Source: Sphaerolaimus hirsutus (lineage: Eukaryota > Nematoda > Chromadorea > Monhysterida > Sphaerolaimidae). Taken from it: a stretch of 64,000 nt of DNA. Below, one piece after another: positions 18,101 to 62,981 of this stretch (the stretch's first letter is position 1; every line of letters starts with the position of its first letter). A program made the position numbers and the translations under genes. Location: contig OZ038457.1 of NCBI GenBank assembly GCA_964036195.1, positions 27,166,787-27,230,786 of the forward strand. The letters are read 5' to 3'. The notes beneath the pieces are model-generated. The model made no database searches. It was not told where the DNA came from and was given only the letters and a program-made list of their open reading frames with translations.

Positions 18101-19759
18101 TTAATTGCCGTTATACATATATGGCTTATTCACAACAAAAAATGTTTTCATATTTTCAAAAATAATTGCATGCTTTATAATTTTTTGTCTCGCTTCCAAC
18201 ATGAGACGTAAACAACTGCGCATGCAGCTTGCAGACTGCCACGTCATATAAGTTTCGTTATTATAAAACCCTTCCCGTTATTATAAAACAAAAACTTTAT
18301 AAAACCTTCATTATAAAACAAGTTCACCCTTTTCCATCTCGCAGCTTATATGAATCCTGCTCAATGAGCGATTCACTGGAACAAACGAACAGTGGGAAAC
18401 AAGAACTGAACCTGATGCATTGGCAGCGGATGCTGGAGAAAATTTGCAATCAATGCGAGATAATCCTGACTGCCAAGGCTGACCTGTGTGCCACAACCGT
18501 TCCCCTGACCACATGCTTCCACAGGTGTTTCCTTTTTATGCCCCCCCCCAAAAAAATGTATTTTCTATGTTCTTGTTTATTAACTCAAATAAACATTTTT
18601 CACCCCATTTTACAGTGCACCAATTGCTGAGGCAAGAGCAAATGCATCAGAATGCAGCCATACAGCACAGTCCACCAGCAATTTTTGTGCCACGGCAGCT
18701 GACATACAAATTCTGCTTCAGGTGCCACTCCCAGACCCTGTAAAGTGCCTGTAAAATGGCAAAAGGGCATTTTACATGACAGTTGACACTTTGCATTTTA
18801 CAGGATTTTTTTAATTGACGTTTGACAAATTTGCATGTCATTTGATATTTTATAGGGCATTTTACAGGGTTTGGGAGTGTGCCCAGGAAGTGCACTCACT
18901 GAGAGAGCAAAGGGCTGAAATCAGTGCGCAGTTGCATCTGTGTCAGCAGGACAAAAAAGCCATGCAGTTTGAATTGGATGCAAAGTTGGCTGAAACACGT
19001 GCAGTTAAATTGATCTTGGAACAGGCAAATCTGGTAATTTTATTTGTTAATTAAACTGATTTGACAGAGTTGTTGGAAGGATTCAGGAAAAATACAGTGT
19101 TTTAGACATTAAAATTGCCTTGGGATAGATACATACCCAGATAGATAGGTCAGCAGCCTAAGGGATAGCATAGATAGCTTGAGCATTTGTGGGGTAACCG
19201 CCCAACCCCCTATACTAGACCACTGATTCTGATATGCTGTGATACATGACTGCACTCAAAATCAAATGAGCATTTTGGCCCTTTTCAGCCATCAGCCACC
19301 TGCCACAATTCAACTCCAGAAAATGAATGCACCCCAGAAACTGACACAATTCTCAAACTGCGCAATCAGTTATCAGAACTAGTTGAGGCTGTGCAAATTC
19401 TGATGGAAAGTGCCGCTGGGCGACAGGCTCACTCAGGTGCCACTCCCAGACCCTGTAAAAAGTCTTGTCAAATATCAAATATCATGCAAAATGTCAAAAG
19501 TCATGCAAGAATGTTATTTTAAACGGCATTTTACATTATCTTTGTATGGAATTTTACAGAACATTTTTACATGAATTTCATTTTACAGAGCTTTTACATG
19601 CATTATGACATTGTGCATTACGTTTGACATTTTCCGGGTCTGGAAGTGCCCCCAGATCTTCTGGTGGCTGAATTAAGGCGGGCCAATGCCACTTTGCTGG
19701 CTGCTTATGAGGTTTTGAGGAATCGAAATTGTGAGAGGATTAGGGTTTTGACTGAGAAA
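15179..19759 (+). CDS. Coiled-coil protein gene, 10 exons, ends uncertain
   Basis: Ten exons join in one open frame: 15179-15367, 16016-16198, 16733-16936, 17320-17468, 17813-17968, 18345-18524, 18616-18721, 18887-19033, 19289-19436 and 19656-19759 (522 codons so far). Every intron is GT...AG and the phases agree at each junction (0,0,0,2,2,2,0,0,1). The protein is hydrophilic and rich in Leu, Glu, Gln and Cys. Heptad-like stretches (for example SLREQRAEISAQLHL in exon 8) suggest a coiled coil. I do not recognise the family. Introns 7 and 9 are family A introners. The start codon lies upstream and was not found; an ATG in exon 6 (18361) is internal to the frame. After 19759, either the GTTAGT donor is used or the frame reads on to a stop at 19849. 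Confidence 0.7.
16270..16505. repeat. Inverted repeat in intron 2
   Basis: GTGGCCACACAAGCTAGTTT (16303 region) and GAAAACTCATAAAT recur inverted at about 16445-16505. The pair flanks a short spacer inside intron 2 of the coiled-coil gene. Confidence 0.7.
18722..18886 (+). mobile_element. Introner family A = intron 7 of the coiled-coil gene
   Basis: The 165-bp element spans the whole intron. It starts GTGCCACTCCCAGACCCTG and ends TTTGGGAGTGTGCCCAG. The inner arms (CCCTGTAAA...TTTACAGGG) are inverted and the middle carries TGACATTTGACA-type units. Exons on both sides end and begin in phase 0 (…ILLQ / EVHSLREQ…), so removal at the element ends restores the frame exactly. Confidence 0.9.
19437..19655 (+). 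mobile_element. Introner family A = intron 9 of the coiled-coil gene
   Basis: This 219-bp copy starts GTGCCACTCCCAGACCCTG and ends TCTGGAAGTGCCCCCAG. It splits a codon in phase 1 (…RQAHS-D-LLVAELRR…). It is the second copy in the same gene, two introns after the first. Confidence 0.9.
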
Positions 19760-19849
19760 GTTAGTTGGGTGGGTCTTTTATCTTGGATTACTTTTGGAAT
19801 TTTCGAATTTTTCCCAGTAAATTATCGCCTTTTCAATATTTCCTGCTAA

Positions 19850-21879
19850 AATTTAAACATGTTTTGCTGCCTTCCAAGCTGTCACCGCAAGCAAATTTGC
19901 ACCTTTTTTGATATGTTACTATAAAATAAATCCCTTTGAAATTGATGTTTTGAATATTTCTCCGCATTTCTTACGAGCTTTCAGCCGCAGTTCGCAGCAA
20001 AAAGTTCTAAAATTCCTAAACGTTTTCGAATTTCTTTTTAAAAAGTCGACAATGCGTTTTTTCTAGTGATGAAATAAAAATTCGAAAAGTTTTTAGAAAA
20101 GGTTTGCAAATTTTTCTTTGCCATCGTTACCATGTCATGCGCTCCTTTCAGTATACGCAAACAATTTTAATTGGTCTCATTTTTAATTGGTGCGAACTGT
20201 GTTTGTCTCGAGCGGAAAATTTTTCCTTAGTGCCTCAGCAGACTCACTCAGTAATCTGAAAAATTGAAACAATTTTTCGATAAAATGATGTGAATTTGGC
20301 CCTTCACACACCAGTTGACAAAGAAACCAAATGTCAACTGGTTCCGATCCCAATTCATAGTTTGTTATATCCATAATTTTATACTCTATATTATGGAATG
20401 ATTCTGCGCATTAACTTTACGGTCCGCCGACTATATGTGAATACAATAATGTGTGGTGCTACTCGCAAGCAAGCTTTGAATTGGAATGGTAACCAGTTGA
20501 CATATAGTGTCGTATCGTTGTCAACTAGTGTGTGTTGGGCCTTTATGACATTTTAAGAATTACCTGTCTGACAAGGGTTAGCATTTAAACCAAAGTATAA
20601 ATGTGTCTGAATATTTATCCGTTCAATCTTTGTGATGTATCAAATCGAAGATACTATAGTTTTGAAGATTATTTACAACACTTCCATTTACCTATGCACT
20701 TTCAACTCATATCATGAAACATTTTCACACTTAACCCTACCTTCACACTATGCATTCTCTCATTTTAACCCCATATACCTATGATATATTAGAAAACTAC
20801 CAGTTATACATAAAATAAGAACCTAAGAAAGTTAGAGAAATGCAAAGTTCACATTTTACTGAAGTTTCCTGAATCCTGAAACATGCAATATTTCCGCATG
20901 GTGCAGATGTTTAAAATACTTTTAAATATACAGGGTGGCCCACGCCAGCCGCACAGTTTCAATTGGCTCCCAACACGCCAATTTTGGATGAAAACTGCTC
21001 AAATTTGGTACGGAGGTAGATAAAGTTACCCCATTTGTTGTGTTCAATGCACGGTTCCACATCGCAAACATTCATGTCGGAACGTGAAGCACAGTTTAAT
21101 ACGTGTTTGAACGTGGCACACAGATTCAGTCGTCTACCAAAGCACCAATTCTTCATAAAAATAGTCCAAATTTGGCATGGTTGTAGATATATGTACCCTG
21201 TTTAGTATGTTAAGTGCACACATGCATATCACAAAATTTTCACATTTATCACACGATATGCAAAACAACGTCACTCCACAGGAGCTGCTTAATTAAAGGA
21301 GTCCACTCTTGCTCCACAAGAGTAATTATGAAACTGCTTCACGTTCCGACAGGAAATATTGTGATATCAAACCGTGCACTTATCACAACAAATGGGGTAC
21401 ATTTATCTACCCCTATACCAAATTTGAGCAGTTTTCATTCAACATTGACGTGTTGGGAGCCAATTGAAACCGTGCGCCTGACGTGGGCCACCCGGTATAC
21501 ACGCGCATATAAAAGCAAACTAGTGATGAAATGGCGCCATTCAATGGACCCTTTTATGGCCCAATGGGCGCCAGCACTAGCAGGCGCCATGGCTCTATTG
21601 GTGCTTGGCGCCCTTTTATGTGGCGCCGTTTGCCGCCTGGCGCCATTTTTCCATCACTAATGATAACATATGATAATCTATGAATACATTAAAATAATGG
21701 ATTTCCGCTTCAAAGTGGGCGCCATTAATAAACTCGCATTTGTTCAGCTGGGGTGTGATTTGATTGGCCCGTGTCCCGATTATTCCGAGTAGGGATCGAA
21801 AAAACTGTGTTTTTTTCAACGACCCTTTAAAAAAACGGTTTTCTTAAAAGCTCACAAATATATTATATGAGTTAACATA
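19850..21879. other. No gene seen; several MITE-like repeats
   Basis: At 20304-20536, ends CACACACCAGTTGACA and CAACTAGTGTGTG match a copy at 46151-46417. At 20931-21495 a foldback has ends CAGGGTGGCCCACG and CGTGGGCCACCCGG next to TATA. At about 21523-21659, TAGTGATGAAATGGCGCC and TTTCCATCACTA bound a GGCGCC-rich element like 59728-60607. No exons were recognised. Confidence 0.6.
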
Positions 21880-22271: not shown

Positions 22272-22362
22272 TACACAGTTATATCAGACAATTGCCTGTA
22301 GGTACTTTGTGATGTTACATATAGCCATAGAATGGCTGTGGGACCATGGGATATCATTATAA

Positions 22363-22644
22363 AAAAGAAGCTTGCCGCCGTGTCGCAAGTTCTTAATTTA
22401 GTTAGTGTTCGATGAGTAAGGGAGAGCCATCGATTAAGATGTAGTGCATTTATTGGGTGTGTGCCAAATAGAATAGAAAATGTGGAGCGAAAATATAGAA
22501 TGAATAAACAACACCTAAATCAACGTTGCGCCATCGCTTCCACACACAAATTCAAAAAGGGAAGCGAAACCTAGATGGCGCCAAAAAACCGGAATGCGGC
22601 GCGCAGCGGAAATACAAAATGCGTGCAAATACATGATGGTTAAC
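22363..22644 (-). repeat. 3' LTR of the retrotransposon
   Basis: It is identical to 28554-28835. Read on the minus strand it starts GTTAACC and ends CTTCTTTT, so it lacks the usual TG...CA ends; some insect gypsy elements also begin AGTTA. It contains a CTATATTTT TATA-like box, and AATAAA (complement of 22449-22454) as a likely polyadenylation signal. The sequence just upstream in element sense (…CCCCCGAGGA) is only weakly purine-rich. Confidence 0.95.
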
Positions 22645-22738
22645 TCCTCGGGGGTTTTAAGACTGTACGTCCCCGGACAGCAATAAAAAATGATCACCTC
22701 ATCACTGTTACAAAAAATACACGGCAACAATGACAATA

Positions 22739-25700
22739 CTACAGCTCAACAGAAACATTGTCATCATCCACAGTTTCTTCATTGTCAGGGACAAATCGTG
22801 GCTGTAACATGTTGGTGGGCACGATTCTTGTTTTCCCATTGTTGAATCGAATGTTGGCTGCCTTGCGAGAGGTGAATGCGATGATGATGCCCTCGCGTGA
22901 GTTTGGCAGATCGAGCTTGGCTTTGCGACCGCTCATTGCGATCGTGTCTCGAACGAAGACAGTGTCACCAATTTGGAATTTTGTGTCAACTCGCGTGGCA
23001 TGCGAATTGTCAGCAGTGCGCTGCTGTTCACGAGTGGCATGTGCATTGATGCGTTTCCAGTAATCCATTAGGGGTGGATCACATTCAAATTCCAGGCCCG
23101 TAGTGGCACGTTTCGAACCAAAATGAATCTCGAATGGAGTAGCGCCAGTAGCGGAATGTGTAGTGGCATTATATGCGGTAACTGCCTCATGCAGAATGGC
23201 AGTCCAAGCACGTTTGTCAGTAGCGCGCTTTTTTGCAATGATGTCTTGCAGTGTGCGAATGGCTCGCTCAGCTAAGCCATTGCCAGTTTTCGCATTCGGC
23301 GTTGTGGTGTGAAGAATGGTTTTGTGCTTGTCCAAAGCACTCTCGAATTCATGGCATTTGAAATGAGTGCCACTGTCGGTGACAATTTCCTCAGGAACAC
23401 CATGTTTCTCAATGATGTCATTGTAGAAGCGCACAGCATTTTTCGCATCGGTAGCTGCGCAGGCTCGAGCTTCCATGTAACGTGACATGGCGTCAATGGC
23501 CACCAGGCAGTGTCGATTGCCTGGATGTGATGGTGGCACAAAAGTCGAGTAGTCCAGGTGCCAGCGCTTTCGAGGCTGGTCCGGAGGTGGGCGAGGCATG
23601 AGCGGCAAATTCTCATACTTTGTGAGCCGTTGTTTGCACGTATTGCATCGATTGCAAAAATTAACCACGTCAGCCCAGAGCGTGGGCCATGTTTCATGTG
23701 CGTAGAATGGACGGAGTCGCTGATATGTTTTGCGGGCATTGGCGTGAGAAGCCCAGCGACCTTTGTGATGCCAGCGAATCATATCCTGCTTTTCGTCAGC
23801 AGTGGTGAAAGTGATTGCTGCAATTTGAGTGCTGCCAGCCGTGTGTTTTGCAGTTGATGGCGCTGGCAGGTTGGAAACCATTTTTCCAAGTCGAATGTGG
23901 CACACCGTGTCGAGTGTGCCTTCAGGTTGATCGAGAACTGCATCACAGTCCTCGTCGTCGCCAGGTGTGCGCACGGGCACTGAACCAGCAGGGGCACGAG
24001 ACAGGGCATCAGCAACTTGATTTTTGACACCCGGTTTGTACCGGACAGTGATGTCGAATTGCTGGATCATGAGGCACCATCGGTAGAGCCTCGGCGAAGG
24101 ATTGTTCTTTCGGAACAAGTGTGTCAGCGGCAAGTGATCGGTGTAGATAGTGATTTTTTCACCAGTGATGTACGGACGGAATAGCTCCAGGGCGAATATC
24201 ACGGCCCGGGCTTCGAGCTCAGTAGCTGAGTACTTTCGTTCCATCGGAGAAGTTGCCCGACTGGCGAAGGCAATGGGCCGCAGTTGCCCATCGTCACCAG
24301 GTTGTTCCAGCATGGCCCCAAGGCCATCTGCACTGGCGTCACTCGTGATCACATAGCCATTGCCTGGCTTTGGCATAGCCAGACTGCAGGGGTTGCCCAT
24401 CTCGGCACAAATCGAATGAAACAATGCTATTAGTTTTTCATTCCATTCAAGTTTAGAACCATTTGTTGGCGCTCGATTGAACATGGCCCGCAGCGGAGCC
24501 ATTCGTTGTGACAAATTGATGTGGAAGCGCCGCATGTAATTTGCGAAACCCATGAACGCAGCAGCTTCTCGTTTCGTTTGAGGCAGCGGGTAATCTCGAA
24601 TTGTAGCCGCCTTGTTTGGATCCACACTGATGCCATCAGGTGTGATAACATGGCCCAGGTATGCGATCTGGGACTTCAGGAAGTGGCATTTCTTCGGATT
24701 GAGCCGCAGACCAGCGTCCATTAGTGTGGATATGACTGCAGTCAAATTTAGCAAATGATCATCAAATGTTTCTGACGCGATGATGATGTCATCCAAATAT
24801 GCTCGGCAATATTTGGTGTGATCCCGCAGGATGTCATTCATAGCCCGCTGGAATGTCGCAGGGGCTGAATGCAGGCCGAATGGTAGCCGCTTCCATTCGT
24901 ACAACTGGTCCAAGGCAGTGAATGCAGTTTTATGTTGGTCTTCCTCCCGAATGCGGATGTTGTAGTATCCACACTTGATATCCAGTGAAGAGAAAAACTT
25001 CATGCCATGCCATAAATCGAGCATGTCATCCATGCGTGGCAGCGGGTAGCTGTCCCGCCGAGTCAATTTGTTTAGTCGGCGGAAATCGACACAGAACCGC
25101 CACGAGCCATCCTTTTTGCGGGCGAGTACGAATGCACTGCTGTATTCGCTGTTAGATGGTGTAATGCAGCCTTGATTTAGTAGATCTTGTAGCATTTTGG
25201 CCACATCATCCCGTAATTTTAATGGGATGCGTCGCGGTGGCTCACGGAATGGCAGCGAATTGCCGGTGTCGATCGTGTGCTCCACTGCAGTGCAACCAAT
25301 TTCATCCACATTTTGGCATGCACCAGTAGAGTATGTGGAGCTAAATGCATGTTGCAATGCAAACAGTTTGTCCACAAGTTGAGCCCGCTCCATCGGTTTG
25401 CAATCGCCAATGTTGAGCATCGATGCCCAATCGGCTTTGGTGATCTCCGTGACTTTAGAGACCATTTGGGTGCCCTCAGCCATGAGGGGCACGTGAGCCA
25501 TGCGGGTCGGCTCGCCATCGGTGTTGGTGAACACGACCAGCATTGCCGTGTCATCATCCTCGAGTTTGCACGCTTGCACAAGCTTGTCATGCGTGTCAAT
25601 GCCAATTCGGACTTCATCAGCCACTGGCATGAGTGGAGTGCCATCAGCACCCAGAATTTGGACACCAAGTTTTAGCATTATGTCCTGGCCCAGCAGAACA

Positions 25701-27532
25701 TCGTGGTCGATGTCGTCGGACACCTGCCAGGTGTGGCGCGTTTTACCACCCGAGAAAGTGATGTCGATGTCCACACAGCCCTGATTGTGAAGTGCGGTGT
25801 GGTTCACTGCAGTCATGCAGTGTTTGGTTGGCTGCAGCATGAGGCCAAGTTTGTCAGCTACATGCCGGCGAATTATAGACACATCGGCACCATTATCGAC
25901 CAAGTGATTAGTGAATGCGATGCCATTCAAGTGTGGCACCGGTACACTTGGAGCCAATTTTGTAGGTGGCTCCAATTTGGGCACGACCATGTTGGCCCTT
26001 TTTGTTTCGACCCGTCGCACAGTGTCGTCAGTTGCCCTGTCACATTCAATGTGCTGGATACGACCAGTCGAATTAGTGCTCTGCGGGTTTGCACCAGCAG
26101 AACTTTGTTTCAGAGCCCAGCATTCGCTGGTGTTGTGTGTCGGTGATTTGTGGTGTTCGCACCACTTGCCCGATCGATTGTTGTTGCTGGCAGGCGTGCC
26201 AGATTTCGGAGGGAAGCGCAGAGCTCCAGGACCAGTTGGCTTCTGTGAACTGGTTCGATTTCTAGCCTTGCAGTCGGCTGTATTGTGGCCATTGGACTTG
26301 TGATAAGCGCAGTATGGCTTCTTGCCACCTTTCGAAGTAGTAGAATAATTGACCGAGTGATTATTCGGCTTCAGCGTAGATGATTCGTGTCGATCGGAAT
26401 GGGACACCTTGTCCCGTCTGTCTGCAAATTCGAGTCGTTCAGCATTATCCACCAATTCAGAGAAAGGCATGATGTCAAATGTTGGCAGAGTGTACAGCGC
26501 CTTTCGTAGGGCTGTGTCGCGGATTCCGGCCATGAAATAGTGCTTGAGTTGCACTGTGAGTGGTTCATCAGCCACAGCAGGAAGCGCCTGCTGCACCAAA
26601 TTCTCGATGAACAGGCTGAAGTCTCGGACCAATTCTTTTGGCCCTTGACGTGCGCTGCAGAGCTTGCCCATAGCGCTCTGGGCAGCGAATCGATCCCCGT
26701 ACTGCGATTCCAGGAATGTGCAGACTTGTGTGAAAGTGCTGCGCGCAGCTGGCTGTAGCCGCTCGAATTGGCGTAGCGCCCGTCCAGTTAGGCACTTGCG
26801 AATGTGTAGGACCGCAATATTGTCGGGTGCGCCCAACATGTTGATGCGGACCGTTAGCTCCTCGAGCCATAATTTGAATTTGATGGCATCATCACCATCG
26901 AATGTGTCGTAATTCTGCTGCAGTAGCGGAGCCCAAATTCGTTGTTGGGCTGGTGTATAACCAGTCACGTGGATTGGCGCAGGTGAATTGACCACTGAGT
27001 TAGCAGGCGAATTGTGCGAGCCAGAATGATTGCCCCCGGGTCCAGTACCAACAGGGGGACTGGAAATTTGTCCAGTCGGGGCCATGGCTGTTGACGAGTT
27101 TACCATTGGTTGGCCCGTTGCCTGCGAACTCGTCATGAATTGCTGCATTTGCTGCATCATTTGCAACATGGCTTGCTGCTGCTGTGCACTTTGCGCCATC
27201 AAATTGTTGACGACTTGTGTCAACTGATTGACACTGGTGGCAATGTGCACGTTGTTGGATGTTGAGGCAGCGTTAGCAACTGGAATTTCGATTCCAGGCA
27301 CCTCGAAACCGGTGACGTTGTGATCAGTGCGCAGCCTTGTCACAGTGTTGCGCAACATGTTGCCAAAATTGACGAAGGACATTTTGGCCCATTTGTCATC
27401 AGTAGGCCAGTCGTCAATGACTGCACCATGTGCACCGGCCAAAGCATCCTTGATGATCAGCAATTTTGGGCGATCCCTCGCATCGGTGAAAACGGTGATG
27501 CACTGAAGCAGTTGGTCCGAAGTGACAGCCAT
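22739..27532 (-). CDS. Gag-pol polyprotein (1597 aa), intact
   Basis: One uninterrupted ORF encodes, in order, Gag and Pol. Gag has a Gln-rich segment around residues 105-135, a capsid-like core at about 200-370, and two zinc knuckles at 408-421 and 458-471, both of the C-x2-H-x4-H-x4-C type. Pol has an aspartic protease with D-N-G-A at 546-549 and LLG near 614. RT carries YLDD at 912-915. RNase H has D1065, E1105 and D1132. Integrase has the HHCC zinc region (H1255 to C1299) and a D1327, D1386, E1422 triad with 35 residues between the last two. The C-terminus has no chromodomain that I can see. Gag and Pol are in one frame, with no frameshift or stop between them. The protein copies the element's RNA into DNA and integrates it. 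Confidence 0.97.
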   Translation of the reverse strand: MAVTSDQLLQCITVFTDARDRPKLLIIKDALAGAHGAVIDDWPTDDKWAKMSFVNFGNMLRNTVTRLRTDHNVTGFEVPGIEIPVANAASTSNNVHIATSVNQLTQVVNNLMAQSAQQQQAMLQMMQQMQQFMTSSQATGQPMVNSSTAMAPTGQISSPPVGTGPGGNHSGSHNSPANSVVNSPAPIHVTGYTPAQQRIWAPLLQQNYDTFDGDDAIKFKLWLEELTVRINMLGAPDNIAVLHIRKCLTGRALRQFERLQPAARSTFTQVCTFLESQYGDRFAAQSAMGKLCSARQGPKELVRDFSLFIENLVQQALPAVADEPLTVQLKHYFMAGIRDTALRKALYTLPTFDIMPFSELVDNAERLEFADRRDKVSHSDRHESSTLKPNNHSVNYSTTSKGGKKPYCAYHKSNGHNTADCKARNRTSSQKPTGPGALRFPPKSGTPASNNNRSGKWCEHHKSPTHNTSECWALKQSSAGANPQSTNSTGRIQHIECDRATDDTVRRVETKRANMVVPKLEPPTKLAPSVPVPHLNGIAFTNHLVDNGADVSIIRRHVADKLGLMLQPTKHCMTAVNHTALHNQGCVDIDITFSGGKTRHTWQVSDDIDHDVLLGQDIMLKLGVQILGADGTPLMPVADEVRIGIDTHDKLVQACKLEDDDTAMLVVFTNTDGEPTRMAHVPLMAEGTQMVSKVTEITKADWASMLNIGDCKPMERAQLVDKLFALQHAFSSTYSTGACQNVDEIGCTAVEHTIDTGNSLPFREPPRRIPLKLRDDVAKMLQDLLNQGCITPSNSEYSSAFVLARKKDGSWRFCVDFRRLNKLTRRDSYPLPRMDDMLDLWHGMKFFSSLDIKCGYYNIRIREEDQHKTAFTALDQLYEWKRLPFGLHSAPATFQRAMNDILRDHTKYCRAYLDDIIIASETFDDHLLNLTAVISTLMDAGLRLNPKKCHFLKSQIAYLGHVITPDGISVDPNKAATIRDYPLPQTKREAAAFMGFANYMRRFHINLSQRMAPLRAMFNRAPTNGSKLEWNEKLIALFHSICAEMGNPCSLAMPKPGNGYVITSDASADGLGAMLEQPGDDGQLRPIAFASRATSPMERKYSATELEARAVIFALELFRPYITGEKITIYTDHLPLTHLFRKNNPSPRLYRWCLMIQQFDITVRYKPGVKNQVADALSRAPAGSVPVRTPGDDEDCDAVLDQPEGTLDTVCHIRLGKMVSNLPAPSTAKHTAGSTQIAAITFTTADEKQDMIRWHHKGRWASHANARKTYQRLRPFYAHETWPTLWADVVNFCNRCNTCKQRLTKYENLPLMPRPPPDQPRKRWHLDYSTFVPPSHPGNRHCLVAIDAMSRYMEARACAATDAKNAVRFYNDIIEKHGVPEEIVTDSGTHFKCHEFESALDKHKTILHTTTPNAKTGNGLAERAIRTLQDIIAKKRATDKRAWTAILHEAVTAYNATTHSATGATPFEIHFGSKRATTGLEFECDPPLMDYWKRINAHATREQQRTADNSHATRVDTKFQIGDTVFVRDTIAMSGRKAKLDLPNSREGIIIAFTSRKAANIRFNNGKTRIVPTNMLQPRFVPDNEETVDDDNVSVEL

Positions 27533-28553
27533 TTCGATGGCGGCACGTGATTTTGTGCAGGCGGGTGCACTTGGTGTAGAGCCAACAGTCTCGTGACTGT
27601 GACACTAGTTGAGCCAGGCACGTCGCAGTGCTGGCATGCACAACCAAACAGCGTGATTGTGTTGCGCGCAGACTGGCCGTTGTCTAGGGGTCAGTTGTGC
27701 GTTGGGTAGTGGCGCCGAGTCGTTCGGGCCACTGCGTTGAAATGCCGGGACGCAGGCTTGCGTCAGCCGGCTAGTGGATCGCACCACAGCCCAGTGCTGT
27801 GGGTGCGATATGTGCCAGGCGTGGCGGCGCTGGCAATGGGAGTGACGGGCGCGGTCGCGTCGGGCTGGCGCGGACTGCGTCAGCTAGACAAATTGCACCT
27901 CAGCCCAGTGCTGTAGGTGCGATGGCGCTGGGCGCGTTGGCGCTGGCGCGGCGGCCACTGCAGCGCGGTCGCGTTGGGCTGGCGCGGCTGCGTCAGCCAG
28001 CTGATCGCACCACAGCCCAGTGCTGTGGGTGCGACGGAACGCGCTACTGCGCGGTCGCGTTGCGGCTGGGCTGGTCGCGTCCAGCGACCAACAGCCCAGT
28101 GCTGCGGCGGGGCCGAGTCTACTCGGACCGCCCTGCGGAATGCCAGTCGCGGTGGGCGCTGGCGCTGGGACCGCACCTGCGCGGTCGCGATGTCCGGCGG
28201 CGTCAGGTTCGCACCGCAGCCCAATGCCGCGGGTGCGATTTGTGCCAGTCGCGTCAGCGCTGGCGTGGCGGCCGCTCGGGTGCGGTCACGTTTTTTACCG
28301 GGCCGGTCGCGTCCAGCGACAAGCAGCCCAGTGCTGCGAAGTCGCCAGGCGCGGCTGCGCGGCAATGAGACCGCGGGGCGCGGTCGCGTTGAGCGCGGCT
28401 GGCCGCTGGCTTGCGGTCAGTCGCGTGCTGTTGTCGCGGTGCCGAGTCGTCTCGGACCGCTGCGTGGACGCGCCAGGCCGCAGGCAAGCTTTGCTGCGGC
28501 TGGCGATAATTTAGACACTATTAGAAAGTGCCTATATCCACGGTCGCGGCACC
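27533..28553 (-). repeat. GC-rich leader with imperfect tandem repeats
   Basis: Between the 5' LTR and the gag start lies about 1 kb of very GC-rich DNA, unlike the A/T-rich surroundings. The motif CAGCCCAGTGCTG (plus strand) recurs near 27789, 27902, 28013, 28091 and 28324, with a variant near 28217; spacing is about 80-125 bp. GGTCGCGT and GCGCTGG motifs lie between. Long ORFs on both strands here (up to 229 codons) follow from the base composition. It may be a packaging or translation-control region; that is inference. Confidence 0.8.
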
Positions 28554-28554
28554 A
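28537..28554 (-). other. Primer binding site, tRNA-His-like
   Basis: Immediately inside the 5' LTR, the minus strand reads TGGTGCCGCGACCGTGGA. This would pair with a tRNA 3' end ...GGTCGCGGCACCA. From memory, animal tRNA-His ends ...GGTCACGGCACCA, one base different over 13. The tRNA assignment is tentative. Confidence 0.6.
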
Positions 28555-28835
28555 AAAGAAGCTTGCCGCCGTGTCGCAAGTTCTTAATTTAGTTAGTGTT
28601 CGATGAGTAAGGGAGAGCCATCGATTAAGATGTAGTGCATTTATTGGGTGTGTGCCAAATAGAATAGAAAATGTGGAGCGAAAATATAGAATGAATAAAC
28701 AACACCTAAATCAACGTTGCGCCATCGCTTCCACACACAAATTCAAAAAGGGAAGCGAAACCTAGATGGCGCCAAAAAACCGGAATGCGGCGCGCAGCGG
28801 AAATACAAAATGCGTGCAAATACATGATGGTTAAC
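28554..28835 (-). repeat. 5' LTR of the retrotransposon
   Basis: This is the upstream LTR in element orientation, 282 bp, with no difference from the 3' LTR on a line-by-line comparison. Promoter-like and poly(A) motifs are as in the other LTR. Confidence 0.95.
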
Positions 28836-28966
28836 TATAAGTTGTGATTTTTTTCAGAAATATCTATTTTTATGTTGACTAGTAATGTATTTATATCGCG
28901 TTTTGTGAATTGTTCGTGACTGAAAGTGAAGTTTGACATGAAATGCTGTTTAAAAAGGGTTATAAC

Positions 28967-29562: not shown

Positions 29563-29570
29563 GTTATAAC

Positions 29571-31084: not shown

Positions 31085-32115
31085 AAGGGTTGGTTTTATA
31101 AAAATTCATTTTAGTAAAATTGTATAAAAATTGTATAAAAATTTTATTGTTTTTTAATTTTATTCTTGTTTCATTTTATTTTATTTTATTCCCAAAAGTC
31201 ATTAATAATAAAAAATGACACATTTTACAAAAATTTTACAAAAATTGTACAAAATTTTTACAAAAAATCAGAATCATGCATGCAAGGCCAGAAAAATGTT
31301 ATAATTAGACCTATACATGAAAAACCTGTGACAAATTTTTCCCTTACTTTTCAAAAGTTGCATGCAGTATGTATTGTTAGCTAGCTGCAAGTGTAAAGTT
31401 ACAATTATTGATAAGAATGGTTTGCATTTTCAGTAGAAGGACTAGTGGAGTGTGCTGGGCACATTTGTAAAATGTAATGCAATTTGTCAATTGTCATGAC
31501 AAATGTAAAGTAAAGAGTGTCAATTGTCATGCAAAATGTCAAGTGTCATGTCAAATTTCAAGCAAAGTGGCAATTGTCATGACAAATGTCACATAAAGTG
31601 TAAATTGTGTATCCAAATCTTGTGTTTTTGTATCCATAGTATGTGTTGTATCCAAATCTTATGTTTTTGTATCCAAATGTTCACATAAGATTTGGATTCA
31701 ATAACAACATAATTTGGATACAAAACATAAGATTTAGATATAAAACATGAGATTTGGACACAATTTGCTTGACAATTGATACTTTATTTTTTACATGTCG
31801 TGACAATTTACACTTTACCTTAGATTTGTCATGACAATTGACACTTTGCATGACATTTTACATTACATTTGACACTTTACACTTGGGACTGCTCCCAGAT
31901 CCATGAATAAACAGGTAGAAACTCAAGCAACCAGATAAAATTTTACAAAAAATATGAATTTTTATACAATTTTACAAAAATTTTACAAAAATTCGAATTT
32001 TTATACAATTTTTATTTTTATTCTTAAATTTTCCATTTTATTTTATTTTATTTTATTCTTGAATTTTCCATTTTATTTTTATTTTATTTTTATTTTTTTC
32101 TGAGATTTTGCCAAC
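31085..32115. repeat. Dispersed repeat, A/T-rich, with TTTGACACTTTGCATG units
   Basis: The left half (31085-31570) matches 1-485 in inverted orientation. 31440-31900 is built from ACAATTGACACTTT units and AAGATTTGGATACA units. It ends TTGGGACTGCTCCCAG at about 31901, much like the family A introner 3' end. The rest is TTTTATTTTTATT tracts closed by GCCAACCCT. Confidence 0.65.
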
Positions 32116-37755: not shown

Positions 37756-38395
37756 GAGGCGTCTAATTCTAAAAGTCGACAAGTCCACAAAATGTGATTT
37801 TGAGTAAATCGCATTTTAAGTTTCGAACCCAATTCCAGGCCCGTGGTGCGTGTCCAATTTGGCTCTCTCATGCTTTTCATTAAGTTCCATATGTTGACAA
37901 TAAAGTGTCAAATTTTCAGCCCCAAATCTCAACGTATATGTGAAAAATGGGGTGTCCATAAAATTCCATTCGGTCAGAGCAAAACTGTTTTGGGAGGGAA
38001 ATGGACTTGTCGCCTTCTTGCACGCGAGAACATTTTTGTTCCCGCCCGCGTTGCGCCTCCCTTATGGGAAATTTATGCGCTTCTCGACTTTTAGAAATCG
38101 GTGCCCATAGTGGACTTATCACATTTCTTGCGTTTTTTTCCCATAAAAAAAGGATGCGCAGGATGGACTTGTCGACTTTTAGCCCAAAACTAAGTGGACT
38201 TGTCGACTTCTTGCCCAAATTTTTTGCATTTTTCCCAAAAAATGTCGAATTTGGCACTATGCCATATGGGCATGTGTGGTCAAAAAATTTATGGAAAATG
38301 ATGAAAAATGTGCGGAAGTAGCCCCAGATGACGTTTCCGGGCCTAACTCGAAATTTTCATATTTGGACTTGTCGACTTTTAGAATTGGACGCCTC
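37756..38395. mobile_element. TIR element with GTCGAC repeats, short copy
   Basis: The ends GAGGCGTCTAATTCTAAAAG and TCTAAAAG-type complement (…TAGAATTGGACGCCTC) are flanked by AATT (37752-37755 and 38396-38399). The interior matches the ends of the 8386-10030 copy, but without the 59-bp array. Confidence 0.88.
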
Positions 38396-38449
38396 AATTA
38401 TTAATGCAGAACTATCTCTAATCATCGCATACTAAAAACGGCCAGCCAC

Positions 38450-39732
38450 ATGACTTGCGTTCACCGGGTGCCACTCTCAGACCCTGCAAAAAGTCCTGAA
38501 AAACGTCAAATGTCGTGCAGAGTGTCAAAAGTCCTGCAAAAATGCTCTGTAAAGCGTTTGCAACTTTGCAGGGCATTTTGCAAGAGATTTTTACATTTCA
38601 CATGGCATTCTACAGGGTGTGGAAGTGCCGCAGGGCACCTTCGTGCTGACTGCAGTAGCATTCAGCTGCATTGCTGGACTGGCCACTGGCTTGGGAGTTG
38701 TCATGGTGTGTGGGTCACTTTTTGTGTTGTCTGTAAGCCAATGCTGTTTCATTTGAGTCTAGATTTGATGGCTGCATAAAGTGGACAAGTAGTTAAGTCA
38801 ATCGACAAACAAACATACAAGTGACAAATATTTTTAATCACAATTTTACTTGTCACTTATGAGTTTTCTTTTAACCTGACTTACTGTCAACTTGACTTAC
38901 CACTTGTCACTATTATCCCCCTTCCTCACTCATTACGTCCAAGATAATGCAATAATGACCCATTCTATGCAACCAACATGCTTTCCCCACCATTATCATT
39001 CCAGCTGCTGAGTTTTCAGAACAGTACACAAAAATATCAATATGATGGTTCATAGTTGCCATTCAGCATTAGTAAGCATATTTTTTAAGAAAAATATTTA
39101 CATCTCCTTTCATGTCTGCCACAAAACAAAAACATCTGCAATTACTTATTCAACTGTACTTTGCACAGATAGACATCAACCAACACGGGTGGGGACTGTA
39201 TCTAGTCCTTCTATCCCTGGTACAAATTCCGCAAATGGATGAGTAAAAACATTTTGGAAAAGAGAAGTGAAATGGGAAGTGAAGTGAGAAGTAAAATAAA
39301 AAGTGCGACTTGAAATGAAAAGTAAAATCATATGAGAAGTGAAATGAGAAATAAAATCATATATGAGAAGTGAAATGAGGAGTAAAATCAGAAGTGAAAA
39401 ATGAAATGAGAATCAAAAGTGAGAAGTAAACAGTGTTAAATCTTAAAAGCAGAGTAAACTGTTCACTTCTCATTTCACTTCTCACTTTTCACTGGTCACT
39501 TCTCGTTTGCCTCCTCCTTTCAGTGCTCACTTCTCACCTCTAAACTGGCTTTTCACTTGTCCACTTGCGGAATTGACCCCTGGTGATCCTGGTGCTGCTG
39601 GTGGCAGTGGGTGTGGTGGGGCCAGAGAGAGATGGGCGCACAAAGAGCAAAAAAGCCATGGCCAAGGCTATGAGAAACACTGCCAAGGCACACACTGGAT
39701 TACTGAAAGCACCGAGTATTACTGGTGAATAA
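38450..39732 (+). CDS. Small predicted two-helix membrane protein
   Basis: Four exons join in frame: 38450-38467, 38634-38705, 39169-39219 and 39583-39732 (96 aa). The protein has two strongly hydrophobic segments separated by a short polar turn (residues about 8-31 and 40-60; DINQHGWG lies between). A basic tail containing GRTKSKKAMAKAM follows. This is a hairpin membrane topology with a probable cytoplasmic tail. I do not recognise the family. Intron 1 is a family A introner and intron 3 is a family B element. The third junction works in frame only with a non-AG acceptor (…CCCCTG before GTGATC). The six-residue first exon is uncertain. The stop overlaps an AATAAA. Alternatively a GTGAAT donor at 39725 could extend the gene. 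Confidence 0.5.
38468..38633 (+). mobile_element. Introner family A in the membrane-protein gene
   Basis: This 166-bp copy starts GTGCCACTCTCAGACCCTG and ends TGTGGAAGTGCCGCAG. It contains the usual inverted arms (CCCTGCAAA, TTTGCAGGG). A phase 0 junction would join …TCVHR to GTFVLTAV…. The upstream exon is very short, so this is the least certain of the in-frame cases. Confidence 0.75.
39220..39582 (+). mobile_element. Family B inverted repeat spanning intron 3
   Basis: The ends GGTACAAATTCCGCAAATGG and CCACTTGCGGAATTGACC are inverted repeats. CCCTGGT occurs at both borders (39215-39221 and 39578-39584), consistent with a target duplication. The interior is made of AGAAGTGAAATGAG units and their complements. 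Removing it joins two halves of one transmembrane helix in frame, but the 3' border is CTG, not AG. Confidence 0.65.
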
Positions 39733-47315: not shown

Positions 47316-48474
47316 ATGGGCAACAAATCGTCATCGTGGAAAAAGCACGTTGAGAAGGAGCAAAGACGACGCCAAGAGACCGTGGAAAAACTGCGACAGC
47401 GCATATCTGATGTCGAAAGTGAAGAATCGCGCTTTTGGGAACAGATCGATCAGTGTGAAAGTGCATTGCAACTGGCCGGTAGGTATAGGGGGTTTTCAGT
47501 GAACCCTTTGGGGAGTTGGCACAATGCCAAGAAAAGATATTCTGGTTTCCTTAGGCAAGTCTCGCACCGCGTGAGATTTCAGACAACTTTCCCAAGTGTC
47601 AAGTGTCACTCATTGACCACTTAGTTCGTTTGCCACTTGCAAGTTGCGGCATTACTCACCACTTACCAACCATTCCCCTTGCCAACTATCAACTTGCAAA
47701 ATTCACCCCCGTGTAGATCTACTGCGCGCTGGCAAAGTGCCAGTAATAGCCGCCCTGCACTTCTACCAAAAAAGGGCACTTAACGCACATGAACAAACGA
47801 ATTGCGTCACGGAATTTCTGCTTGAAGCTGAATCAAGTGCGATCAGATTGGACACTGAATATGAGGGAGTGGAGAAAGATAGGAGACCACCCCTCTTTGG
47901 GTTGCCATTCAGTGTGAAGGAACATTTTGAGGTGATATTAAGTGAATTTTTGTGACGTTTCTGCCTGGTGGCAGTGCCGCACCCTGTAAAGTAAAGTGTA
48001 AAATGTAACACAAATTTGTCAAATGTCAGGCAAAATGTCAAGTGCGGTGATAAAATCTTTTATTATCTATTTTATTCGCATTTTACATGTCATTTGACAC
48101 TCCACAGGGTGCGGTACTGCGCCCTGGTACCGAATCCGCAATTGAGGCGTCTACTTCTAAAAGTCGACAAGTCCAAAATATGGAAATTTCGAGTTAAGCC
48201 CGGAAACGTCATCTGGGGCTACTTCCGCACATTTTTATCATTTTCCATAAAAATTTTTGACCCAGGGGCGGGGTGCGGGGGGGGGCTGCTGCCCCGCCCC
48301 CTCCCGGGGTGAGACCTAAAAGTCACGGAAAATGCAATTTTTTCCAATACATTTTTCGAGGTTTCGCGCAATTTCTTCCCCATACATTGTATTTTTAGCG
48401 CATCGGTCCCCGTAAACAAATATCCTTGAAAATGAACACAATTTTGCGATTTTCGCTGCATATGTATGCATATT

Positions 48475-51500: not shown

Positions 51501-54500
51501 ACGAGCACGAGGGTTTCTCAAAGGGGGGTGCCAGCCAATTTGCCGGGGGTGGTAGTGTTGGGCATCACCTGCGGCCCCATGGCTCCACACGCGGACACTT
51601 TGGCTGAGGTTATGAGGTAAATCATGTGTTTCGGTTGGTACCCGTAGCACACCTTGTTACTAGGGATGGAAACCGTTTAAAAAACCGCTTTTTAAAGGGG
51701 TAAATTTAGACATTTACGGTCTTTTTGGAAAAAGCAAAAATAACGCTTTTATTTTAAAAAATAGGGCCGTTAAAAAGCCGCTTTTGTCCATCTATAGTTG
51801 TTACTGTTGTGCAGGTTTAAGGTTGTTGTGAAATATCTCGTTTTTGGCGAAATTATCACTTTTAAAAGTAATTTTTCACGTCACAGAGCCACTTTGAGTC
51901 CGGCTGCGATGACAATGGACCCTTATTATCTGTGTGTGCCATTCCGCGATGAAGTTTGTTGTCTTTTTATTCAGGGGTATATGAGTTTGGGCGTAGGGTT
52001 GTAATTATATCGTATTATATGGTATTTATTCGTGACGAATCTATTGATCAGACTGAACGTTATGCAGGCTGTTACTGTATTTTGATGAATAAAGACTGGT
52101 GGAAAATTGTGCACCAGTTCACTGTACTGAAAGCGACGTAATTTAGAAATGTCGAATGTCAAACATTTTGAGAGAAAAAGCCTCGTCAAGTATCGATAAT
52201 TGGACAAACACTTCGCTTCAAACCCAATTGTAGCTAGGTATATACGCTTCAGACTGTTTAAGGCAGAAAAAGTTTTCAGGTGCCAATTGCACATGATAAC
52301 ACACGATAACGCTTGTTCCACATGATCCACAGTGATAGCCCCTCTCCTGCCTGACCCGTGCTTTCATATCACCCCATTGCCCCCCAGATGTACGCAAGCG
52401 CGGAACCCCTTCGCATCGGCTACTACCACTCCGACGGCTTCTTCCAGTGCACCCCCGCCGTGCAGAGGGCCGTGGCTCTGGCAAAGGACACCCTACAGGC
52501 GGAGGGCCACCAGTTGGGTAAGTGCGCTTGGAAATGTTGCAAATAATATTTGGGGAATGTAGGTACATTTTGGAGGTGTCATGCTTGGATAGGATAGCTG
52601 GAGATAATGGCATTGTGCCAATGGAGCAGTGCCGCGAGTGAACAATAGCGGACTGCATGGATAGATTTCAAAGGACATTGCCGTCGCCGCATTAAAACCC
52701 TTTTGGTGACTAGAGCCCAGCCGCCACTTGTGTCCAACGCTATTAGAGGGGCACGGGTTCGATTCCCGCCTGTGGCAGTGCAAATTTTGAACTCTTACTT
52801 TAGTGATAAGTAAAGTAAATAGAAGCGTGGTAAGCGAAGTGACAAGTGTCAAAAAAGTTCCACCCAACGCAGTGCGGTGGGACTTCCCGGACACGGAGCG
52901 AGCGCTGCGTCTGTTCTTGAACATGTTCATGCCCGCCGCCGGCCAGGGCATAAAAACTCTCTTTGATAAAGATGGTTAGTATACCATTGTACACGGTGCA
53001 AGGTCGCCATGATTTCGATCGTTTTGGTGGTGTAGCTGAAGATATGGCTCTCGTAAAAAAATCGTGCCGAACTTGATGTGGAAGCAGTTTAGTCAAAAAT
53101 GGGCATTTGCAAATGTCGGAATTTTCCATTTGTAAAATGAACATACTTAAAATACAAATCAATTCAGGTAATTTCTACGAGCCACTTCTGGCGGAGCACC
53201 TTCTGCTTGTGCGACTGCCATTTTGGTTGAAACACTTTATTGGCTTGGTGCTCAAGTGGTCCAGATGTCCCTTTTTTGCCAGGATTTCCAAGGCACTTTT
53301 ATGGATGAGGTATGTTTATATACCGGGCGGACTTGATATCTGCACTCGCGTATATTTATGTCTCATGCTGGATGTGTACCAATGTTAATTGAATTGCGAT
53401 TTGTGTAAAAAAAGATGAAAAATAACATTGTTGTGAATACGTTTACATTGACATTATAACAGCAATGGATTTTTTCAACTAATTTTGATCCTATCATCTT
53501 TTCAAAAGCAGCGTTTGTATTTAATCAATCATTTACATCAATTTTTCAAGTCGAATCTCTAATCCCGTTTATCACACCCCGAAGCACCGATGCAAACACT
53601 CTCCGTGCCGTGTATCAAGAATGTCTGGAATTTCGCCGCGAAATGACCGACAATTGGCTGGAGCGCTCCATCGACGCCGTTTTGACGCCGGCGTATTTTG
53701 GCGTGGCGCCAAGTCACACTTTGCCGGACAGGTGCCACTCACAGACCCTGGAAAATGCCCTGGGAAATGTTAAATGTCATGCAGATGTTCAAAAGTCATG
53801 TAAAATGCCCTGTAAATGGCAAATGAGTTGCCATTTTCCAGGGCGTTTAAACGACTTTAGACACTTTGCATGACATTTGACATGTTACGAGAGCATTTTA
53901 CAGGGTCTGGTAGTGTCCCCAGGTGTTCTCTGTCTGCCGCATACAGTCCAGTGTGGAATGCGTTGGACTTCGCTGCTGGCACAGTGCCAGTTACCAGAGT
54001 TACTGAACTCGATGAGCAGCAGGTGGGGAATTGTTGCCAGTTTGCGTGTTTTTGTCTATTCACTTGGCTGCACATGTCTGATTTCAGCAAGTATAATTCT
54101 CTGCCTTGAAAATCGGTAATAATGTTTGAACATATTCAAATCCGTCCTGGATAGGCCTCTGCACAAGTAGTTTTATAACGTTAGCACTTTTTGATGAGCG
54201 CAGGCCAATAGCTAGTAGTTCATACAGTCAAAAATGTTCACAATTAATCTACCTGCATAATCATGCGTGGTGGCGCAGATGAGCGGCTACCCGTCCAGTG
54301 ACGTGTGGTACCGGCTCGCCAAGAAGGACCAATCAAAAGGTTCGTCACGCTCACAATTTAACTATTTTTACTTTGTTGAAACATTTTTGCCATCTTTTTT
54401 AAAGAAATCTGAATTTTCAGTCTCTAATTTCTGCAGTTTTCAGTAATTTTTCAATTACTTGCTCAGTGCAGGAAATGCAGTAACGATAATACCCGTAGGC

Positions 54501-59303: not shown

Positions 59304-59471
59304 ATGGGTCAAAACTTCAGCGGCGGCGCCAAGTTGTCCTGCGATCTGCACCCAAAAGAGGAAGGCACGGGCACTGGGCCGGTGATCACTGGGGGACCTG
59401 TGGGCGTCACGGGGACGAGTGTGGGTCAAACTGGGGAACCTATAGGTGTCCATGGGGAGGCACTTGCGTGA
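59304..59471 (+). CDS. Small Gly-rich ORF, 55 aa, hypothetical
   Basis: A good start context (ACAATGG) opens a 55-codon frame ending TGA at 59469-59471. The codons are GC-rich, unlike the A/T-rich flanks. The protein begins MGQNFSGGAKLSC and continues as Gly/Thr/Val-rich quasi-repeats (GVTGTSVGQTGEPIGV). Gly2 with Ser6 fits an N-myristoylation pattern, as at the FAAH start. I do not recognise a family. It could be a complete small protein or the first exon of a longer gene. Confidence 0.45.
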   Translation: MGQNFSGGAKLSCDLHPKEEGTGTGPVITGGPVGVTGTSVGQTGEPIGVHGEALA

Positions 59472-59727
59472 TTTTGATGCTCGCGGAGATTTTTTTGTTT
59501 TTTTTTGTAAATGTGGTTTTGTGATTTATTTGTGTCTTGTTTTTTGGTGTCTCTGTCGCTATGGTTGAACTCTACCTAGTAACTCTTAGGTGTAGTTTTC
59601 TTTTATCTAATTATTTAAAACGCGTGACTGGACGCTCATTTGGTCACTTTTATTAATATTTCTGTGATCTTAGACCATTCAACTGAAATAAAAGTATCTT
59701 GACATGACGTTCCAAAGGGGTGACATG

Positions 59728-60607: not shown

Positions 60608-60679
60608 GTGACATGACAGACAGCGCATTGATTTTTAGATGGAAGGGGGCAAAAATGGACCAATGCAAATAATAATGCC

Positions 60680-61003
60680 CAGAGTTGTTAGAATTACTGA
60701 ACTTGTTTAAAAGTATATGTAAATGTAAAGTTTTTTTTGCTCACCACAAAGTATAGAAAACGTAAAATACTTTTTTACTCGTACGTACGCGTAAATGTGG
60801 GTACTTTTTTGTGTAGTCACTTTATAGGTAAATGTCCCAAATTGACTTTTCTGAAATACATTTTCCGTACGCCTATGCTTTGAAAATGTACGGGTACAAG
60901 TGCGTACGGTATTTGAAAAAAAGTATATGTGAATGTATTTACCGCGTACTCGCGTACGCGTATTTTTCGAGTAAACGTATTTACGTACCTTTTAACAACT
61001 TTG
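60680..61003. mobile_element. hAT-like MITE, CAGAGTTGTTAAAAGT family
   Basis: The ends CAGAGTTGTTAGAATTACTG and CCTTTTAACAACTTTG are flanked by a perfect 8-bp duplication ATAATGCC (60672-60679 and 61004-61011). The interior has GTACGCGTA-like repeats. It is 324 bp. Confidence 0.92.
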
Positions 61004-61372
61004 ATAATGCCTTTGTTAAACCTGACAGCATCAGAGACAATAGTTGCCATTGTTCTTGTCCAGTCACATGCTGCATACATAATCTGCTTGGCGGCTGTAT
61101 GTACACTTTGCACTGAAATCTACCATATACCATCGGAATAGTGAAACTAGTTTTATATTTTTCATCGCTATGCATTTGTTTGCTACGGCAAATAAAATCA
61201 TGCCCGGAATTTATCACGTGACTTTGTTCAACAAATTATGGTAACATTCCGCCTGCCCAGCGCGTTTCGAACAAAAATTGTAAAGACTATAAATATCATT
61301 TAAATTTACAAGAAAGTAAAGCTACATTTTCTGCAGAAAAAGAAACATTTTCTCAATTTTTATACCATAAAA

Positions 61373-62981
61373 ATGTCCGAGAACGATCCATTTGGGAAGA
61401 GCATCTTGGTTGTGCACAGCGATCCGGAAGAGGCTGCAGACAAGTACAGTGAAAATCCGAATAGTGGAACAAATTATGACAAAAATAAACATGATAGTGA
61501 ATCCTTGAGTCAAAGCGTGGGCAAGTTGATAAGATGATGTTGTTTTTGTGGAATAGATTTGACAATTTGGGCATTTGCTGGGGCTAATTCCACCAGCAGA
61601 AGTTCCATGAAGTTTTTCAGTTACGTAAGTGAAGCGAAGCTACAAGTGGTAAGTCGCGTGTATTTCAAAAGTGAAAAAATAAATAGGTAAGTAAATTTCA
61701 AAAACTTGACGTTTATTACTGTTGTCACTTGACCACTCGTGGAATTGGCACCAGGAAGAGGAACAGACTTGTCGTTAAAAATTTGTCCTTTACTCGGTCC
61801 AACGCATGTTTTCTGAAGGAAGTACCCATTATGACATCATCATGGTTAATAAATAAAAAAGTATGCAAAACTATTTTCCTGGAAAAACATTTTTCGTATT
61901 TCTTGTATAGGTATTTTTCTTTTTGAAATATTTTTTTGTGCAAGTGTGCGCAAACTGCCTCCTTGCGCGTCATCCACTAAGACATAAGTAATTTTTGGCA
62001 CATACTGTGTGGTCTGCCGAGTATACCAATTATCAAATGACCACTTGCCAAATTCATCTATGCTCACAGACACATATTCAAAGAAAAATGGCATATTTCT
62101 TGCCAAGGAAAGGAATGGTTCAAACGACAACAAAAGAGCCAATTCCAGAGACAATCACAGCAGGTGCCACTCTCATACCCTGTAAAATGCCCTGGAAAAT
62201 GTAAACTGACAAGTCATGTAAAATCTAATTTGTTTTTAACTAGTTTTTGACATGTTTCATGACGTTTACCTAACTTTAGACACTTTGTATGACATTTTAC
62301 ATTTTCAAGTGCACATTACATGGTCTGGGACTGCCCCCAGGTCTAGGAAGCCACCACAGAAAAAGCAGCCAATCGTAGTTGAAACATCAGAATCAGAAGA
62401 TGATTATGCAAAGGAAATCATTAAAAAAGATAAAATGGGCATTTTGGGTGTGTCACATTTCACAACACCTTGAGGTCTTTTCTTGTGAATCCATTAGTCT
62501 TTCAAAACTTGCTTAAATTTGTGCTTCCAGGTGCTTATACTGACAGCTCCAGCAGTTCTAGTGGCTCTGAAGACATGAAACCAATGAAATCCAAACACTC
62601 CAAGAAGACAAAAACGAAAAAGTCAAAAGACAGGAGACATTCATCTTCTGATGATGGTTAGATCATGCATAAATCAATCATGGAATAAATTTAAAAAAGC
62701 ATGACATATTTTTGACATCAAACATTTCAATTCCAGTAAACTCAAACTCTGATAGTGAAAAAGAAGACAAAACAAAGAGTAAGAAACAGAAGGGTTCAAG
62801 CAATTCAAAGCCATCAAAACGGCCTGATTCAAAAGATGACTCTAACTCAAAATCTGCAACGAAAAGCGAGCAAAATGACAACCAGGATGAAGATGATAAG
62901 TACAAATTCTGTTCAAAAAGTTTTTTTCCTGCACTTGATTCAATGAATTATAAATCAAAGTCTACTCTGAAGTCGATCTGA
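61373..62981 (+). CDS. Charged Ser/Lys-rich protein, 6 exons, 263 aa
   Basis: Exons 61373-61524, 61755-61860, 62108-62163, 62341-62447, 62531-62656 and 62737-62981 give 264 codons in one frame with matching phases (2,0,2,1,1). The start is MSENDPFGKSILVVH. From about residue 88 the protein becomes low-complexity: ERNGSNDNKR, then acidic (ETSESEDD), a Ser run (SSSSSSGSED), a Lys-rich KHSKKTKTKKSK, and repeated SDSEKED/SNSKPSK stretches. It is probably intrinsically disordered and could be nuclear, judging only by composition. I do not recognise the family. Intron 3 is a family A introner; the intron 1 acceptor is a family B end. AATAAA follows the stop. Confidence 0.72.
61579..61754 (+). mobile_element. 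Family B repeat ending at an acceptor
   Basis: CTGGGGCTAATTCCACCAG on the left and CCACTCGTGGAATTGGCACCAG on the right (shared part CGTGGAATTGGCACCAG) are inverted ends. AAGTGAAGCGAAGCTACAAG-type units lie between. The final CAG is the acceptor of intron 1; the donor lies 54 bp upstream of the element. Confidence 0.6.
62164..62340 (+). mobile_element. Introner family A = intron 3 of the Ser/Lys-rich gene
   Basis: This 177-bp element is the whole intron, from GTGCCACTCTCATACCCTG to TCTGGGACTGCCCCCAG. It splits a codon in phase 2 (…SRDNHS-R-SRKPPQKK…). Neither of the other two frames stays open downstream (each meets a stop within 13 codons), so the junction is well constrained. Confidence 0.88.

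Follow-up and report, generated by a model that had tools for sequence, protein, structure and literature searches.

Palindromic miniature transposons that very probably act as introners in the nematode Sphaerolaimus hirsutus

The window analysed here, a 64,000-nucleotide stretch of the genome of the nematode Sphaerolaimus hirsutus (on contig C13 of assembly G000), carries six copies of a short inverted-repeat element, which is very probably a non-autonomous DNA transposon, namely a palindromic miniature inverted-repeat transposable element (MITE), acting as an introner, i.e. as an element that creates introns by insertion. The copies of this family interrupt unrelated coding genes, from which their exact removal restores conserved proteins, and many similar putative introns resemble one another up to both predicted splice borders, as is expected of introners; the element is short, has terminal inverted repeats (TIRs) and is devoid of coding capacity, as is expected of a MITE. 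The genome, which comprises 348,482,957 bases, seems from these signatures to have undergone a large burst of intron gain.

A consensus built from 54 sampled copies, each turned so that its GT end came first and those with two GT ends excluded, is 188 nt long, with 92 of its 94 mirrored pairs perfect. The arms differ solely at mirrored positions 2 (T/G) and 4 (C/G), which gives GTGC versus GGGG tips, and because position 2 differs between the arms a GT donor is present at one end only. Arms that differ at just the donor base and one neighbour suggest how a symmetric transposon could become a one-way intron. Of 27 copies located through the inner core alone, 18 combine a GT end with a GG end, three have GT at both ends, one has GG at both and five have other ends. 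Element length ranges from 116 to 631 nt (median 188.5) over 84 sampled rows. Nine of these rows represent copies with two GT ends, in part read from either strand, a few loci are duplicates, and at least one of the long rows, that of L052 (548 nt), is two neighbouring copies joined. The median pairwise identity among the 54 copies is 79%; between nearest neighbours the median is 89% and the highest value 96%; the apparent recency of the family is argued from this nearest-neighbour identity, together with the empty sites of three copies described below.

As its flanks show, the element inserts at CWG and duplicates these 3 bp. In the same 27 copies, whose selection took no account of the flanks, the 3-mers on either side agree in 21, CAG or CTG makes up 47 of the 54 flanks, and the next 3-mers outward agree in just one copy. 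The joined flanks of 92 copies, used as queries, found uninterrupted counterparts for three (L018:1719, L050:286 and L081:705): those of the first match the paralogous locus L017 at 97% over 140 nt without a gap, and those of the other two match uninterrupted repeat copies. Insertion with a 3-bp duplication is therefore shown by the three empty sites, which are paralogous or repeat sites, none of them in a confirmed exon. Mismatched duplications are found as CTG..CAG versus CAG..CTG at 6:1, 6:1, 8:1 and 8:2 under four stringency limits (p 0.125, 0.125, 0.039 and 0.109), an asymmetry that is suggestive only, the loci having mostly been preselected by their left triplet.

The effect on coding sequence was read from junction peptides, i.e. 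translations made after removal of the element and one target copy. In seven of 33 sense junction peptides (one of which was scanned twice) a Pfam domain spans the junction at E 0.001 or better, and these cases represent seven different genes genome-wide:

Carnitine acyltransferase, locus L024, target CAG..CAG; Pfam domain across junction, E 2.9e-16
FAAH, copy 5 of the window, target CAG..CAG; Amidase Pfam domain across junction, E 0.001, below family cut-off
Lipase, locus L089, target CTG..CAG; Pfam domain across junction, E 2.4e-27
STAG, locus L077, target CTG..CAG; Pfam domain across junction, E 4.7e-13
Bestrophin, locus L098, target CTG..CTG; Pfam domain across junction, E 1.7e-22
TPT, locus L038, target CTG..CTG; Pfam domain across junction, E 3.6e-15
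CHGN, locus L080:2548, target CTG..CTG; Pfam domain across junction, E 5.9e-16

All of the spanning domains except that of FAAH, i.e. six of seven, pass the Pfam cut-off. The FAAH junction product aligns with the FAAH chains in the PDB (E 1.2e-7) without a gap at the junction, in agreement with the claim of the initial annotation that the conservation of this gene fixes the exon borders. The alignment of the bestrophin product to the PDB has no gap anywhere, those of the lipase and carnitine acyltransferase products have none at the junction, and the TPT product has a weak match (E 0.00056); at a further locus, L101, a 7tm domain begins just past the junction. In a protein collection, a single match, at 37%, was returned for the model of the CHGN gene, and matches of about 30% to nematode and other animal proteins for the FAAH model, the best named ones being from nematodes, with no close product of the same species listed for either.

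All six copies that had been annotated in the window were recovered where they had been placed, and they share the termini ascribed to them with small differences (e.g. the copy at 10143 has GTGCCACAC for GTGCCACTC). The earlier right coordinates take in one 3-bp target copy (CAG), and the element proper is 3 nt shorter. The copies, their putative introns and a related copy are as follows:

10143-10322, + strand: copy 1; CAG at 10140-10142 and 10323-10325; junction without an open frame
18722-18883, + strand: copy 2; CAG at 18719-18721 and 18884-18886
18722-18886: putative intron of copy 2, phase 0, in a gene for a coiled-coil-like product; open junction frame
19437-19652, + strand: copy 3; CAG at 19434-19436 and 19653-19655
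19437-19655: putative intron of copy 3, phase 1; open junction frame
38468-38630, + strand: copy 4; CGG at 38465-38467 on the left, CAG at 38631-38633 on the right
47968-48123, + strand: copy of a related subfamily, with GTGGCAGTGCCGCACCCTG and CAGGGTGCGGTACTGCGCC as its ends; CTG on both sides
53589-53731, + strand: FAAH coding sequence upstream of copy 5; start approximate
53732-53919, + strand: copy 5; CAG at 53729-53731 and 53920-53922
53732-53922: putative intron of copy 5, phase 2, in the FAAH gene
53923-54028, + strand: FAAH coding sequence downstream of copy 5; end approximate
62164-62337, + strand: copy 6; CAG at 62161-62163 and 62338-62340
62164-62340: putative intron of copy 6, phase 2, in a gene with a charged product; open frame only

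Removal leaves an open frame at the four copies for which this had been asserted, namely 18722 (phase 0), 19437 (phase 1), and 53732 and 62164 (both phase 2), and at 10143 the longest frame over the junction is 31 aa, i.e. none is open. Copy 4 (38468-38633) departs from the pattern in that its flanking triplets differ (CGG versus CAG). Copies 2 and 3 probably share one gene, and their junction products gave no Pfam match above the cut-off. The earlier statement that at least three unrelated genes of the window are interrupted holds by homology for FAAH, the other two genes standing as open frames. The subfamily copy at 47968-48123 has different inner ends (GTGGCAGTGCCGCACCCTG) and the same kind of CTG duplication, and lies within a putative larger FAAH intron. 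As separate observations, the sequences at 9812-10034 and 38177-38399 of the window represent one repeat (79% identical), situated about 70-110 nt upstream of the copies at 10143 and 38468, and an inverted pair of 378 nt (48-425 and 31141-31518, 95% complementary) adjoins sequence with TGACATTTGACA-type words like those of the introner arms, but with other ends.

In the mechanism proposed here, a CAG target would be laid out as ...CAG/GTGCC...GCCCC-CAG/..., the slashes marking the predicted exon borders, with the first target copy remaining as the last exon bases, the GT donor supplied by the element and the acceptor AG by the second CAG copy. Splicing would thereby remove exactly the element and one target copy, leaving the protein unchanged, and the element itself would be mobilised by a transposase. 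The pre-mRNA is predicted to fold as one long hairpin, which would hide the inner decoy sites (a GTAAA donor 18 nt in, and TTTACAG and GGGAG, respectively 19 nt and 9 nt upstream of where the second target copy ends) and leave the terminal sites freer. For 21 hand-picked exonic copies the predicted mean probability of being unpaired is 0.04 for GTAAA (n 14), 0.00 for the CAG of TTTACAG (n 19) and 0.09 for GGGAG (n 15), compared with 0.46 for the terminal donor and 0.62 for the terminal target (n 21). The copy in FAAH has a predicted fold of -99.7 kcal/mol (z -11.8), and the z-scores of three copies, this one included, are -11.8, -20.2 and -3.7. Such hiding of decoys is a prediction that follows from the palindrome itself.

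Several findings weigh against the introner reading or narrow its support. The hairpin values do not mark exonic copies, because 38 other copies are nearly alike (0.05, 0.03 and 0.08 versus 0.42 and 0.52). As to orientation, the GT end lies upstream in all seven homology-confirmed exonic copies and junction-spanning domains are found in none of 31 antisense peptides (7/33 versus 0/31, Fisher p 0.011), but some of the sense peptides had been picked by eye because they looked coding, and the sense set had flanks of up to 450 nt a side, as against 210 nt for 30 of the antisense ones. A blind composition score applied outside its training loci gave only 16 sense to 6 antisense calls (p 0.052); at L028, one of the six called antisense, the sense strand weakly matches the Y and C2 domains of phospholipase C, and the training locus TPT was miscalled antisense. 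As far as tested, exonic copies appear to carry the GT end upstream. An autonomous element with introner ends was not found in the one transposase family considered, of which one copy was examined. Finally, the exonic CTG..CTG copies in bestrophin (L098), TPT (L038) and CHGN (L080) lack an AG at their exact end, which leaves such copies outside the simple GT-AG scheme.

Three explanations of the CTG..CTG copies were considered, and for the first of them in-frame, stop-free GT-AG pairs near the ends were enumerated (75 x 76 offsets) in nine candidates, three of which (L038, L080 and L098) are Pfam-confirmed as exonic. Splicing at ordinary GT-AG sites off the exact ends, i.e. at the inner GGGAG or at a nearby exonic GT or AG, is a tentative possibility. 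The use of GGGAG, which would leave nine extra bases and thus three codons, is in frame and stop-free in seven of the nine, length-neutral pairs through exonic or inner sites are likewise available in seven (all but L086 and L098), and codon-adding introners are described for Aureococcus (PMC9860276). However, the inner AG is missing in L080 (CHGN) and L060, extra residues in bestrophin would break a segment that is gapless against vertebrate bestrophins, and several copies that keep GGGAG were found via the exact right end, which guarantees GGGAG; the length-neutral pairs come from a wide search in which some are expected by chance, and would swap exon residues for element residues. Retention of GGGAG as a mark of CTG exonic copies was rejected, there being no signal by eye once the exact-right-end loci are set aside (kept in L086 and L098, absent in L080 and L060).

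It is doubtful that the CTG-flanked exonic copies are mostly unspliced, as damaging alleles or pseudogenes in one assembled genome. Some of the copies do seem to be of recent origin (L080:2548 matches another copy of the sample at 95% identity and folds into a nearly perfect hairpin), yet CTG left ends are nearly as common as CAG ones (586 versus 729 exact), and several conserved genes that contain CTG copies have, but for the insertion, an open frame in that region. An unlikely third possibility is that CTG introners in exons are removed exactly, either as GT...TG introns or under guidance of the hairpin without a 3' AG, the CTG..CAG copies representing a subsequent state, reached once a mutation in the second target copy had supplied the AG. 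Were this true, the host spliceosome would first tolerate new introns and their borders would be repaired later, and the CTG copies raise the question of how strictly the animal spliceosome needs a 3' AG. A TG 3' site of the kind that exact removal would need is described for human U2 introns (PMC2374985), where TG is an alternative site, whereas here GT...TG is read from sequence only.

Turning to the family as a whole, it is very improbable that it is an ordinary MITE, lying mostly in intergenic sequence or in pre-existing introns and matching exon borders secondarily or by chance. Such an element would fit the 43 of 72 copies for which neither strand was called coding (150-nt junction window; stops or low score), and also locus L071, which seems to sit, oppositely oriented, within a larger intron of a GDT1 gene, a TTTACAG acceptor preceding the conserved exon; against it stand seven conserved domains broken exactly by the element and one target copy and continuous without it, each with the GT end upstream. 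Propagation through RNA by reverse splicing, as proposed for some fungal introner-like elements, would explain why repeat limits coincide with splice limits but is scarcely credible, since the family has target duplications and inverted ends, and also copies that lie outside open frames or lack an AG, all of which points to DNA transposition, and for the empty-site copies it is refuted by their target duplication. The introner reading of the initial annotation is thus upheld, as far as sequence can do so, by the inverted ends and target duplication, by the match between the ends and the GT and AG borders, and by the recovery of conserved proteins on exact removal. GG-donor introns (GG end upstream at CAG) were sought as well, and none was confirmed among the scanned peptides. 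A separate stretch at L051:1143-1519, with ends GAAGC and GTGCC between CTG and CAG, lies in a long open frame with its GA end upstream and is a possible GA-AG intron, without Pfam support.

With respect to the transposon class, PIF/Harbinger elements duplicate 3 bp, typically TWA; the introner duplication fits this in length, but its sequence is CWG. The Harbinger transposase PF13359 (DDE_Tnp_4) has 163 matches in the genome, many with identical scores. It was rejected as a partner on a single copy read (L102, 4 kb), which had no matching ends within that stretch. The PF13359 match (e.g. L102, C1:20512400-20516400) is split by short intron-like stretches, mostly with 4 TGA inside the match. 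CACTA/EnSpm elements, whose tips begin CACTR, were set aside as well, the introner tips being mostly GTGC and GGGG, with CACTC starting four bases inside.

A genome search with the element ends, which had been suggested at the outset, returned thousands of matches, far more than chance would give, and 0 for the controls, i.e. the reversed patterns searched in the same genome. The left end CAGGTGCCACTCNCAGACCCTG (22-mer, at most one mismatch) is found 3,677 times (1883+1794; reversed control 0+0), and the family size is given as at least 3,677 left ends. The CTGGTGCC... pattern has 3,272 occurrences, these two one-mismatch sets overlapping in that each takes in exact members of the other. Exact, non-overlapping left ends number 729 with CAG and 586 with CTG, and exact right ends 538 and 368 (controls 0). 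On its own, the 9-mer GTGCCACTC is found at 8,529 places compared with 1,262 in its control, an excess that suggests about 7,000 left ends in the genome. Genome-wide selection for a right-end AG was tried and rejected (CAG:CTG 538:368 right versus 729:586 left, Fisher p 0.067). A separate region of assembly G000, C4:881755-982294, holds ten CTG right ends on one strand, about 7-15 kb apart, a pattern suggestive of a tandemly repeated gene or segment that bears one element copy.

The origin of new introns is a long-standing question, and introners as such are known already, this family of palindromic MITEs appearing to be a large variant from an animal. In a 2022 survey of 3,325 genomes (PMC9860276), introners are traced to DNA transposons, with families of 5 to >2,000 copies, TIRs in 72 of 177 and target-site duplications (TSDs) in 49 of 130 families, and animal hosts in only two groups, with copepods named among them. 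Shared with those introners are the DNA-transposon signatures, the insertion into exons and the supply of one splice site by the element and the other by the target duplication; in its Chrysochromulina example the element, which has TSDs of 4 bp but lacks evident TIRs, brings its own 5' site and recruits the 3' site, and in the Symbiodinium example TIRs are combined with the reverse splice-site arrangement. The present family differs from those described there in its CWG targets of 3 bp, in a palindrome with two mismatched positions and in its animal host, a distinction drawn by description only. The introner elements of Amoebophrya (PMC7789003) are similarly MITE-like, with inverted repeats, predicted hairpins and direct repeats of 3-5 nt at the exon borders, but are reported among introns with very diverse non-GT-AG borders, whereas the CAG copies here fit GT-AG. 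Among animals, the non-canonical introns of Fritillaria borealis (PMC13326754) carry a short YAY triplet both ahead of the 5' site and at their 3' end, an arrangement comparable with the target triplets on either side here, and have borders that, unlike those here, are mainly AG/AC and AG/AT. The copepod Eurytemora affinis (PMC5714493), with its GA and GG donors, shares the exon-end AG (obligatory there), the recently gained introns and the animal host; GG donors of that kind would need the GG end upstream, and no such exonic copy was confirmed here. No description recognised as this family was met in the introner literature, in a comparison made other than by sequence and on main texts rather than supplements. 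With thousands of copies, empty paralogous sites, both target orientations and mismatched duplications, the birth of introns could be tested in one animal.

Among the other features of the window, 8646-9500 is taken up by a tandem array of 59-bp units, after which this unit recurs as an array in inverted orientation, and an LTR retrotransposon-like element is situated on the minus strand at 22363-28836, with an open frame of 1,621 aa (22739-27604) encoding protease-like, RT, RNase H and integrase domains. Its flanking direct repeats of 283 nt are 100% identical as listed, which suggests a very recent insertion. The COI of the mitochondrial contig is about 70% identical to its best named matches, from arthropods and a priapulid, and 91% identical to the best match without a species name. 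In this COI, TGA reads as Trp and AGA stands where Ser is usual, as in the invertebrate code.

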